This document shows, piece after piece, positions 21,602 through 46,811 of a DNA stretch of 64,000 nt. Source of the DNA: an uncultured Bacteroidales bacterium (GTDB lineage: Bacteria; Bacteroidota; Bacteroidia; Bacteroidales; UBA932); contig ONIQ01000013.1 of assembly GCA_900317925.1 (NCBI GenBank), positions 26,029 through 90,028 of the forward strand. Direction: 5' to 3'. Within the stretch, counting starts at the first letter, position 1. Each line of letters starts with the position of its first letter. The notes below the pieces were generated by a model. That model saw only the letters and a list, made by a program, of their open reading frames with translations. It had not been told where the DNA came from and ran no database searches. The position numbers and the translations under genes were made by a program.

Positions 21602-22894
21602 TTAAAATTCAACATCCAGGTTTTCGATTTCCGTGGCAACCTGCTTGAGGAAGCGGGTGGCTTCGCCGCCGTCGATGGCGCGGTGGTCATAGGTGAGGCT
21701 CAGGCCCATATAGGGGACAAAGGCCACCACACCGCCGCCCAGGTCTTTCGGACGCGGGACGATGGTGCCCACGCCCAGGATGGCGCTCTGGGGTACATTG
21801 ATGATGGGGGTGAACCATTCCACGCCGAATCCGCCCAGGTTGGATACCGTAAAGGAAGCGGCTTCCGGAGAAAGCAGGTCCGGATTGATGCTGCCCTTCT
21901 TGCTGTCTTCGGCCACCTTCTTGAGGTTCTTGGCCAGTCCGGTGATGTTCAGTTCGTCGGCATGCGGGACGGCCGGAACCATGAGGCCGCGTTCCGTATC
22001 CACGGCCAGGCCCAGGTTCACGCTCTTGAAGAGGCGCATGGCGTCTCCCAGGCAGTGGGAATTCAGGTTGGGGAACTTCTGCAGGGCCTTGATGACGGCA
22101 TAGCAGACAAAGTCGTTGATGGTGATGTTGACATCCACCTTGCCCTCTTCGAAGGCCTTCTTGGCTTTCTTGCGGAGCGCCTGGACCTTGCGGGCGTCGG
22201 CACCCAGCATATGGGTGAGCTGGGCGGAGTTCTGCAGGGAATTGTACATGCTCTTGGCAATGAGTTTGCGCATGTTGGACATCTTCACCACTTCGAACTC
22301 GGCGCCTTCTCCGGCTATGTCGGTGTGGTTGGCTTTCCAGACCTTCAGGTCGGAACCTTTAACAGCTCCGGCCAGGCCGCTTCCCGTTCCAGGAGAAGCG
22401 AGTCCGCCGTCGGCCATCCTGGCCTTGGCCAGTCCCGTCAGGGTACCCTGGGCGGCAGCGGCGGCTTCCACGTCGCGGGCGATGATGCGTCCGTGAGGGC
22501 CTGTTCCGGCAACGCGGCTGGTATCCACACCCTTTTCAGCGGCTATCTTGCGTGCGCGGGGCGATGCGGGAGCGCCGGAGGGTTCTCCCGCAGCAACCTG
22601 TGCCACCCTCGGCGTCATAAGAGGGAGGGACCCAGCCTCCTGGCTGGAAGGGGTCGGGCTTTGCGAGACGCTGGTCGAGGGAAAACCTGCATTGGGGGCG
22701 AATTCGGCAAAGGACTCGCCGGGTTCGCCGATGACCATTACATTCGTCAAAACGGGAATCTCGTCCCCGTCCTTGAAAAAGACGGCAAGGACGGTTCCCG
22801 CCACTTTTGCTTCTTCCTCGAAGGTCGCCTTGTCGGTTTCATAACCGAACAGGATGTCCCCTACAGCGACCTGGTCACCCGGGTTAAAAAACAA
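21602..22894 (-). CDS. Dihydrolipoyl acyltransferase (E2), lipoyl domain truncated at N-terminus
   Basis: Core of the 2-oxoacid dehydrogenase complex. The visible chain is 430 residues: part of a lipoyl domain (lipoyl Lys22 in ETDKATFEEE), a hinge, the E3-binding domain (PRARKIAAEKGVD...GRIIARDVE) and the catalytic domain ending TYDHRAIDGGEA with the His/Asp motif. The start is a problem. The only initiation codon is a TTG inside the U-tract of the rpoC terminator, and the first two strands (~25 residues) of the lipoyl domain, with any start ATG or promoter, are missing. The frame stays open upstream through the terminator but has no ATG/GTG/TTG. Residues 70-105 are encoded by a palindromic repeat. 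Deletion or assembly error at about 22.89 kb is likely. Confidence 0.85.
   Translation of the reverse strand: MFFNPGDQVAVGDILFGYETDKATFEEEAKVAGTVLAVFFKDGDEIPVLTNVMVIGEPGESFAEFAPNAGFPSTSVSQSPTPSSQEAGSLPLMTPRVAQVAAGEPSGAPASPRARKIAAEKGVDTSRVAGTGPHGRIIARDVEAAAAAQGTLTGLAKARMADGGLASPGTGSGLAGAVKGSDLKVWKANHTDIAGEGAEFEVVKMSNMRKLIAKSMYNSLQNSAQLTHMLGADARKVQALRKKAKKAFEEGKVDVNITINDFVCYAVIKALQKFPNLNSHCLGDAMRLFKSVNLGLAVDTERGLMVPAVPHADELNITGLAKNLKKVAEDSKKGSINPDLLSPEAASFTVSNLGGFGVEWFTPIINVPQSAILGVGTIVPRPKDLGGGVVAFVPYMGLSLTYDHRAIDGGEATRFLKQVATEIENLDVEF
22580..22687 (-). repeat. Palindromic element inside E2 gene, copy 1
   Basis: About 108 bp encoding residues 70-105 of E2 (the hinge). Imperfect terminal inverted repeats: GGGTTCTCCCGC (22580) and GAGGGAAAACC (22677). 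Internal landmarks shared with the copy at 46.5 kb: GTGCC-N-CCCTCGGC, then AAGAGGG, then GGGGTCG, then GCGAGACG. The centre is a perfect hairpin CCAGCC-TCCT-GGCTGG. Both copies are translated in the same frame. Confidence 0.75.
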
Positions 22895-45553: not shown

Positions 45554-45869
45554 TAATATTCCATCGCTTCCGTGACCTTCGTCCGCCAATCCCATCCCGT
45601 TCGTCTTCGCCATCCACCAAAAAGCCCCATTTGGTGGATGAACGGCCCTTCTGCCCTCGCCATCCACGAAAACGCCCCATTTGGTGGACGGCTATCATTT
45701 CCAGTTAGGGACCTTCCGGGTTGGAGGCCATTTTTCCGGACGGTCGCCCTCTGGCGCTGTCGGTAAGTCTTATGAGGGGGGCTGGAAGGCCCGACAGCAG
45801 AGGGGAAGCGGGGATTAAGCAAGTGTCAGCACGAAGCTATATGTGTCAGCAAGAGGCAACCGGGGCGGG
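45554..45869. other. Gene-free spacer between aroE promoter and methyltransferase gene
   Basis: About 315 bases without a credible gene; short open frames here have no family look. It holds the tandem hairpins at 45609-45690, a CTGTCGG/CCGACAG inverted repeat (45758-45764 and 45791-45797), and GTGTCAGCA repeated at 45823 and 45843. It is not an obvious terminator region, as no T-run follows the hairpins. Confidence 0.6.
45609..45690. repeat. Two tandem hairpin repeats, 50-base period
   Basis: Unit 1: CATCCACCAAA (45611-45621) pairs perfectly with TTTGGTGGATG (45630-45640). Unit 2 starts 50 bases later: CATCCACGAAA (45661-45671) with TTTGGTGGACG (45680-45690), carrying two mismatches. Both have a GCCCCA loop and are preceded by CGC. 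They look like a short dispersed palindromic repeat that duplicated. Confidence 0.75.
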
Positions 45870-46811
45870 TTAGCGTTGGCGCTGGCGGACGGCTTCGTAG
45901 AGGAGGATGGCGGCGGAGACGCTGACATTGAGGGAGTCCAGGCGGCCAAGCATCGGAATGAGGATGTGGGCGTCGGCAGCCTGGCGCCAGGCATCGGTAA
46001 GGCCGGTAGCCTCGGTGCCCATCACCAGGGCGGTGCCGCAGGTCATATCCACGTCGTAATAAGGGGCGGAATCCTGCAGCTGGGCCGTCAGGATGCGGAT
46101 GTTGTTCGCTTTGAGCCAGGCGATGGCTTCGGCCGAGGTGCAGGCCACGACCGGCACCGTGAAGATGGCGCCGATGCTGGCGCGGATGAGGTTGGGGTTG
46201 TAGAGGTCGGTCAGCGGGTCGCATAGGATGACGCCATCGGCACCGGCGGCATCGGCGCTGCGCAGCACCGCGCCCAGGTTCCCCGGCTTCTCCACACGCT
46301 CCATCACCATAATCAGCGGGGAGTCCTTCCCCGTAAGCAATTCATCCAGCGAGCGTTCCTTCCAACGGACCTCGGCGATGACGCCTTCCGTTCCTTCCCG
46401 GTACGCCACCTTTGCATACAATTCCTTCGACAGATGGAACACGCGTGCCGGCCGGTCTTTGCCCGCCGAAGACCGTGCCGCCCTCGGCATCGGAAGAGGG
46501 GGGACCGTGAACGAAGTGATCGGTGGGGTCGAGCGTAGCGAGACGTCTGAAGCGGGCAAAGACCGGCCGGCGGCGCTACCGGCAGCGCTATCAGCGACTG
46601 GAGTACCCAGGACACTTGCTGCAAACTCCGGACAAATCTCGGGGCAGAGGAAGAGGGTGTCGAGCTGGAAGCCGGCGGCAAGGCAGTGCTCGAGCTCCCG
46701 CCGGCCTTCCACCACAAACAGACCCTCCTCCCGGCGCAGGCGGGATTTCTCCTGCAGCGCCAGCAAGTGCTTGATCTTCGGGTTCTGGGCCGATGTAATA
46801 CGCTCAATCAT
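45870..46811 (-). CDS. SpoU/TrmH-family RNA 2'-O-methyltransferase with repeat-encoded insertion
   Basis: Transfers methyl from SAM to a ribose 2'-OH in rRNA or tRNA. 313 residues, against about 260 for relatives. The substrate-binding N-terminal domain starts ITSAQNPKIKHLLALQEKSR; the SPOUT knot shows MVMERVEKPGNLGAVLRSAD, ALVMGTEATGLTDAW and LDSLNVSVSAAILLYEA. The extra roughly 45-50 residues (about 73-122) lie between LGTPV and RVFHLSKELYAKV, a loop between domains; residues 81-122 are encoded by a palindromic element also present in the E2 gene. It follows the lipoprotein gene in the lysS operon (13-base gap). The target nucleotide is unknown. Confidence 0.9.
   Translation of the reverse strand: MIERITSAQNPKIKHLLALQEKSRLRREEGLFVVEGRRELEHCLAAGFQLDTLFLCPEICPEFAASVLGTPVADSAAGSAAGRSLPASDVSLRSTPPITSFTVPPLPMPRAARSSAGKDRPARVFHLSKELYAKVAYREGTEGVIAEVRWKERSLDELLTGKDSPLIMVMERVEKPGNLGAVLRSADAAGADGVILCDPLTDLYNPNLIRASIGAIFTVPVVACTSAEAIAWLKANNIRILTAQLQDSAPYYDVDMTCGTALVMGTEATGLTDAWRQAADAHILIPMLGRLDSLNVSVSAAILLYEAVRQRQR
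46447..46571 (-). repeat. Palindromic element inside methyltransferase gene, copy 2
   Basis: 125 bp bounded by perfect 20-base inverted repeats: 46447-46466 and 46552-46571 (core CCGGTCTTTGCCCGC). Inside are CCCTCGGC...GAGGG and GGTCGAGCGTAGCGAGAC, shared with the copy at 22.6 kb. It is read in frame, with no stop, giving a Ser/Pro/Arg-rich insert. Confidence 0.85.

Follow-up and report, generated by a model that had tools for sequence, protein, structure and literature searches.

How does a protein-coding gene come to carry, in the middle of its reading frame, a palindrome that folds on itself, and what kind of element is it? The question is raised by a SpoU-family methyltransferase gene in the window, by which we mean the whole stretch of 64,000 nucleotides of Bacteroidales DNA analysed here. 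The sequence-only reading of this stretch had described a 125-bp palindromic unit with perfect 20-base arms inside the gene, and the unit is indeed there, with the minus-strand ORF running through it without a stop (Table 1). Its inverted repeat comprises 27 nt with 89% complementarity, the perfect part being the outer 20 nt (46447–46466 and 46552–46571), and its fold scored z −5.4 against shuffled sequences. Pfam delimits an MRM3-like substrate-binding domain at residues 10–66 of the protein and a SpoU_methylase domain at residues 166–305; thus, the encoded insert falls between the two domains.

The methyltransferase had also been said to exceed its relatives by about 50 residues. Twenty-nine of 30 orthologous loci were read (L237 was left out), and just five of them contained the element core, which does not fit the possibility that the same insert always accompanies this gene. 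Eleven of the 24 core-less orthologues are 260–278 aa long, and against these the statement holds for the 313-aa protein of the window; it fails against 11 others, which reach 291–319 aa owing to other sequence in their linkers (two more read short). Next to the element in the methyltransferase linker of genome G082 (locus L209) lies a minisatellite whose short units read CAAGCCCGGCAGG or nearly so. The spacer below the methyltransferase gene of the window contains, at positions 45611–45690, two hairpins of REP-like appearance, CATCCACCAAA ... TTTGGTGGATG and another that differs little from it; a similar one was seen in L004.

A homologous unit had been pointed out in the hinge of a 2-oxoacid dehydrogenase E2 gene, between the lipoyl (residues 2–54) and E3-binding (residues 109–143) domains recognised by Pfam. 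The words shared in order by the two units are present, and the motif composed of CCCTCGGC, five bases and AAGAGGG occurs exactly twice in the window. What did not stand is the palindrome of the E2 copy, whose arms have decayed: no long inverted repeat spans 22580–22687, and the fold is no better than that of shuffled sequences (z +1.0). The E2 hinge also holds a copy in L090, a locus matched to the window E2 by eye, where it is sense to the gene instead of antisense.

Table 1. Coordinates of the two element copies, their parts and their host genes in the window
Feature	Position	Strand	Remarks
SpoU-family methyltransferase gene	45870..46811	−	ORF and Pfam; the element sits in the inter-domain linker
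Element copy 1	46447..46571	+	Folded strand +, antisense to the methyltransferase gene; encodes residues 81–122
P1 stem of copy 1, left (5') arm	46447..46473	+	Outer 20 nt form perfect pairs with the right arm
Copy 1, pseudoknot strand S1 (CGTGCC)	46474..46479	+	Pairs with loop 46486–46492 (GGCATCG, one bulge); sequence and family covariation
Copy 1, P2 (CCCTC/GAGGG) and its loop	46481..46500	+	
Copy 1, hairpin P3 (ACCG ... CGGT)	46504..46524	+	Length varies across the family
Copy 1, hairpin P4 (GTC-GA-GCGTAGC-GA-GAC)	46528..46544	+	
P1 stem of copy 1, right (3') arm	46545..46571	+	
2-oxoacid dehydrogenase E2 gene	21602..22894	−	Start codon uncertain; second copy in its hinge
Element copy 2	22580..22687	+	Core kept, P1 arms decayed; encodes about residues 70–105 of E2
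Copy 2, S1 (GTGCC) and P2 (CCCTC/GAGGG)	22600..22625	+	
Copy 2, P3 (CCAGCC/GGCTGG) and P4 (GTC ... GAC)	22632..22669	+	

Fold of the element family

The median length of the element is 124 bp over 176 copies. From the ends inward, it is composed of the stem P1 (about 27 bp) and then of a head made of S1, P2, P3 and P4. The strand preceding P2 pairs with the loop of P2, so that S1 and P2 are interleaved in an H-type pseudoknot. Because the pattern used to gather copies prescribes the inner S1 pairs and the greater part of P2, some of the conservation in these parts follows from the method; a looser check on it is provided by the covariance-model search. The first alignment leaves out L026 and L036 (broken or chance matches), and A1/A2 leaves out L004, L005 and L034 (30 of 33 kept). 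In the covariation test of S1, the three inner pairs were required and the remaining pairs were tested: among 64 distinct combinations of strands, 62 form the two outer pairs (mean 30.6 and maximum 41 in 1000 shuffles) and 53 form all tested pairs (mean 13.6 and maximum 23 in shuffles). The pair types seen included CG/CG, TG/CA, CA/TG, AC/GT and TA/TA, among others. P2 has changed on both sides, to CCCGT/ACGGG or CCCGC/GCGGG, in four variant copies of 110. Copies with such variant stems were observed at L156:6956, L108:3021, L091:4767, L110:1909, L329 and L330, some of them near a standard copy, and in the L110 variant S1 is changed as well as P2.

The arms of P1 were placed by best pairing, and copies near locus ends or with an arm score under 10 were dropped (176 of 188 were kept), which makes the pairing of P1 partly a matter of construction. 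In this set, P1 is paired in at least 90% of the 176 copies at 11 of positions 1–14. Its sequence is almost free, with an information content of 0.04–0.21 bits at positions 12–16 and 20–27, and the arms are unlike between copies beyond the inner few positions; in the copies of genome G180, unrelated arms enclose near-identical cores. Positions 28–45 from the inner end hold 0.00–0.11 bits, although a foot at varying distance would blur in this register. Overall, a stem of nearly free sequence closes a conserved pseudoknot head and two hairpins. Among the P1 pairs there are 121 G-U against 62 A-C, with more G-U than A-C in 71 elements, the reverse in 22 and ties in 83 (p 3e-7, kinship ignored). 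Such an excess indicates that the plus strand is the folded strand, i.e., the one whose fold is kept; the G-U bias may arise in RNA or in single-stranded DNA.

Host range, reading frames and empty sites

Six copies were found in the genome of the window, the methyltransferase and E2 units among them, which removes the concern that these two might be the only ones; another lies in a gene that, judging by eye, we take to be RfbB. A covariance model of the core matched 122 of 150 sampled genomes of the genus (presumably GTDB genus Cryptobacteroides) at E ≤ 0.001 and 97 of 150 at E < 1e-6, the other 25 of the 122 having weak matches alone. At least 1351 element matches (E ≤ 0.001) are distributed among the 142 genomes listed, with at least 30 in the richest genomes; these counts take all genomes as independent and ignore kinship. 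None of 246 other genomes of the class matched the core model, searches over more than 40 genomes (the 150 of the genus and these 246) having been run with stricter filters. A first pattern search gave matches in 20 of 61 genomes, all belonging to the genus of the window, while a pattern scan of named genomes yielded at least 119 stretches, and the 80 titles listed for it without exception name assemblies of Bacteroidales or Bacteroidia, many of them of ruminant origin. So far, the element has been found in one genus of gut Bacteroidales.

Carriage by phages or plasmids was considered and rejected: a phage search returned no element match, viral contigs gave no match to one exact pattern, and plasmids yielded one 33-nt match (E 0.1) from Azospirillum. 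A search of Rfam over the six loci with copies gave one hit at E up to 5, namely mir-598, which was discarded because it lies outside the element and under the gathering score. In titles and abstracts of the openly licensed literature, we found no prior description of the element.

The frame test covered 173 of the 176 copies, the other three being without enough flank. Both flanks are coding on one strand in 55 of the 173, and here 51 copies are in frame and open, four are in another frame and none contains a stop (binomial p 3e-20, with some copies orthologous and hence not all independent). The remaining 118 comprise 73 elements with one coding flank, 15 with coding flanks on opposite strands and 30 with none by the same test. 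Genic copies are almost confined to open-frame placements, and in both window genes they occupy inter-domain linkers. Since such copies keep the frame open, they are predicted to be translated into about 40 extra residues. The earlier statement that the two window copies are read in the same frame is correct for the methyltransferase and E2 by reading, but it does not extend to the family: 28 of the 51 in-frame copies are antisense to the gene (20, 5 and 3 per frame) and 23 are sense (16 and 7). With five of six frames and both orientations in use, the encoded peptide is not conserved. Open frames number 3.27 of six per element, against 2.09 in shuffled sequences, in a set that includes coding copies. 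Translational bypassing was rejected, about half of the in-frame copies being antisense to the gene.

Several relatives have empty sites where genome G084 has filled ones; judged by eye, these sites are a flavoprotein linker, a hisF–hisI spacer and a GltD-like linker. As for RfbB, the element is present in two of 30 loci read (in this genome, G000, and in G082) and absent from 28, some of which have other linker repeats. Filled RfbB proteins are about 40–43 residues longer than those with a plain linker, which equals one whole element with both arms and implies that the core arrived along with both arms. An origin of the arms wholly from the target was rejected, both arms being extra in comparison with element-free RfbB and likewise at the L240 and L245 sites. 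Direct repeats flanking the 176 copies showed no excess over permuted flanks; at the L245 site, a possible 9-nt target-site duplication with one mismatch was seen by eye. Overall, the many copies, the orthologous sites that are occupied or vacant depending on the species, and the predominance of in-frame placements all support the initial idea of a mobile, in-frame palindromic element. The same linkers house other repeats. One of them, a short in-frame palindrome of another kind that encodes VMPG(S/P)DRAS, was seen in the RfbB linkers of L410, L411, L417 and L435 and in the methyltransferase linker of L226, with a second partial copy in L410. Larger C-rich palindromic inserts (of the GGAGCCCCCTAT.GAGGGGGCAT ... 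TTCGCTTCGCTC type) occur at the same linkers in L320, L330, L335 and L337, the one in L337 apparently lying inside the first element.

Arms at shared sites and possible origins of the element

Filled orthologous sites allowed 63 pairs of copies to be compared at 29 sites, 43 of the pairs being in the same orientation. Across these 43, 574 arm positions are unchanged, 194 are compensated, 84 are changed on one side and 19 are changed but unpaired. However, 163 of the 194 compensated positions come from 19 pairs with dissimilar arms (397 positions in all), and independent insertion into the same linker would give the like; compensation in these pairs may reflect either fast concerted change or fresh insertion at the same site. 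The 24 pairs whose arms are 70% or more identical offer 474 positions, of which 403 have not changed, 31 are compensated, 36 are one-sided and four are unpaired. At 35 of the 474 both arms have changed, with pairing kept at 31 of them; independent change of the two arms would have given 8.3 such positions. One-sided changes being as common here as compensated ones, homogenisation of the arms must be incomplete. When the methyltransferase copy of the window is set against its G082 counterpart, seven of 27 arm positions differ, and six of these are compensated.

Both orientations were encountered at 10 of the 29 sites, in different species. At three of the ten, near-identical arms stand in opposite orientation: L070/L071 versus L074 (the cleanest case), L099 versus L121, and L241 versus L295, where the cores differ. 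For these three sites, inversion is the simplest reading; the other seven have no near-identical arms, and independent insertions would give the same picture. Arms at shared sites therefore differ in concert beyond chance, and at a few sites a near-identical unit is found reversed. Neither this behaviour of the arms, nor the opposite orientations, nor the pseudoknot of the head had been described in the sequence-only reading. At four sites, the outermost arm is, by eye, an inverted copy of host codons, e.g., FCVKL in G126. At the single orthologous site L246, similar arms surround different core types. Such arms around different cores, together with the G180 cores that have unrelated arms, would mean either that arms were remade at insertion or that cores were exchanged by gene conversion. 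Excerpts from two published accounts describe how template switching between inverted repeats homogenises arms and inverts spacers (PMC8604942) and how it can also maintain stems (PMC8794818).

What, then, moves the element and shapes its arms? We consider it fairly probable that it is a dispersed, mobile, non-autonomous palindromic family that is mobilised in trans by a putative factor and whose arms evolve in part by template switching. DNA polymerase switching templates between the inverted arms would copy one arm onto the other and invert the unit, and, if the switch ran on into the gene, the outer arms would become inverted copies of host codons. The putative trans factor would act on single-stranded RNA or DNA, where it would recognise the folded head; copies mobilised in this way may insert repeatedly into the same tolerant linkers. 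Template switching would in this way account for one part of the behaviour of the arms and repeated insertion for another; the near-identical G180 cores with unrelated arms are not explained by homogenisation alone. A scenario in which repeated insertion into the same tolerant linkers brings new arms each time, and template switching is minor, is possible, although we lean against it. It would fit the dissimilar arms of 19 of 43 same-orientation and 16 of 20 opposite-orientation pairs, the G180 copies and the presence of other repeats in the same linkers, but it agrees poorly with the similar arms of 24 same-orientation and four opposite-orientation pairs, with both-arm changes fourfold above independence in those 24, and with outer arms that appear by eye to copy host codons. 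Covariation in the pseudoknot and the G-U bias of the plus strand might instead be the marks of a selected structured RNA, functional at each locus, whose arms are kept paired by ordinary compensatory evolution. We think this unlikely: sense and antisense placements are mixed among the in-frame copies (23 and 28), and both orientations at one site occur in different species, so no fixed transcript function fits. Drift of low-complexity linkers without mobility is hardly credible, as the same core is found in unrelated genes and between genes and is present or absent at orthologous sites, even though the linkers are hypervariable.

The candidate vehicles were weighed in the same manner, and no mobilising gene was found among the RVT_1 and RAYT-like candidates in the 150 genomes of the genus. 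It is tempting to suppose that the element is a large REP-like substrate moved as single-stranded DNA by the RAYT-like (Y1/HUH transposase) proteins of the genus. RAYT-like proteins (PF01797) occur in 84 of the 150 genomes: 63 of the 76 genomes that have at least five elements contain them, as do 21 of the 74 that have fewer than five (p 1.3e-11 by Fisher's test, with phylogeny ignored). However, the element core lies within 1.5 kb of one of 30 RAYT loci, and seven genomes with at least ten elements lack a RAYT hit at the threshold used. Furthermore, 16 of the 19 RAYT loci that could be read (out of 30) have a simple hairpin adjoining the gene, and five of the 19 have related hairpins on both sides (by eye, with no chance control). 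Altogether, we regard RAYT-driven movement as improbable. A retroelement whose RNA is copied into the target by reverse transcription, the second arm and an inverted target copy arising by self-primed synthesis, would account for new arms on near-identical cores and for inverted host codons; still, we rate it as very unlikely. A search with the RVT_1 model alone, on incomplete assemblies, detected reverse transcriptases in 43 of 150 genomes and none in G000 (six copies) or G016 (29 matches, 98% complete), and the side on which the original host sequence lies is mixed between sites. Target-primed copying from the 3' flank was rejected on similar grounds: the original host sequence is on the right at two sites and on the left at others, and RVT_1 was not found in several element-rich genomes. 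There might also be no dedicated enzyme at all, the element being a selfish fold with a conserved pseudoknot head that spreads when replication switches templates, makes its arms out of the DNA at the landing site and is tolerated inside proteins because many frames are stop-free. We deem this quite unlikely; if it were true that the arms are built from landing DNA, each arm would be a record of past landing sites.

Relation to palindromic elements on record

Palindromic elements lying in frame within genes have already been recorded from Rickettsia and, judging by titles in the reference list of PMC2229807, from Wolbachia and Methanocaldococcus. Rickettsia palindromic elements (RPEs) are described in the available parts of two accounts as dispersed palindromes of about 105–150 bp found between genes as well as within protein-coding ones, to which they are fused in frame, and they are said there to encode a conserved peptide (PMC2229807, PMC10969869). 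The resemblance to RPEs proposed by the sequence-only reading holds, as far as these excerpts go, for behaviour: the Bacteroidales element is similar in palindrome size, dispersal, use of coding and apparently non-coding settings, and in-frame fusion to unrelated proteins (the methyltransferase and E2 by Pfam, RfbB by eye). The frame rule differs, since in place of the conserved peptide described for RPEs we see five of six frames and both orientations. In addition, RPEs occur in another phylum, and the parts of PMC2229807 and PMC10969869 available to us make no mention of a pseudoknot head, inversions or concerted arms. As there is no single conserved peptide and the comparison with RPEs was made by description, not by sequence, we file the element as a distinct family of the RPE kind, i.e., a separate and abundant in-frame palindromic family of gut Bacteroidales, set apart from RPEs by description.

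Well over a hundred genomes are available for comparison, and the family thus offers a natural experiment on how such elements move. It likewise tests how proteins take up foreign peptides and what share of the "compensatory evolution" of stems is due to mutational copying between arms. Copying between arms warns that covariation in a stem is not by itself proof of selection; a pseudoknot, in which the strands interleave, is the better test.

Other palindromes invite comparison as well. Excerpts from a study of Nematomorpha mitochondria report perfect inverted repeats in coding sequence whose arms evolve in concert, with template switching proposed as the cause (PMC6649704). The Bacteroidales element shares inverted repeats in coding sequence and concerted arms with these palindromes; according to the same excerpts, however, both arms encode conserved protein residues in Nematomorpha, whereas the Bacteroidales palindromes occupy linkers and belong to a dispersed element whose head is conserved. 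Bacterial MITEs, as outlined in parts of PMC10969869, are dispersed too; they are small and non-autonomous, end in inverted repeats and are in some cases fused in frame. Our element is also small and dispersed, with inverted repeats and in-frame fusions. It departs from MITEs in that its arms vary from copy to copy instead of being shared terminal repeats; it may also differ in target-site duplication, no excess of flanking direct repeats having been seen over its 176 copies. REP elements have a constant tetranucleotide at the foot of the hairpin. In the available parts of PMC3733652, they are described as dispersed palindromes of 20–40 bp associated with RAYT transposases. The element is likewise a dispersed palindrome, and RAYT-like genes co-occur in its genus, but, set against that partial account, it is longer (median 124 bp), has a pseudoknot and lies away from the RAYT gene in 29 of 30 loci. 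The RAYT-like transposases themselves, seen at L378–L407, form a family of about 310 aa with up to eight matches per genome, many of them beside simple hairpins of their own.
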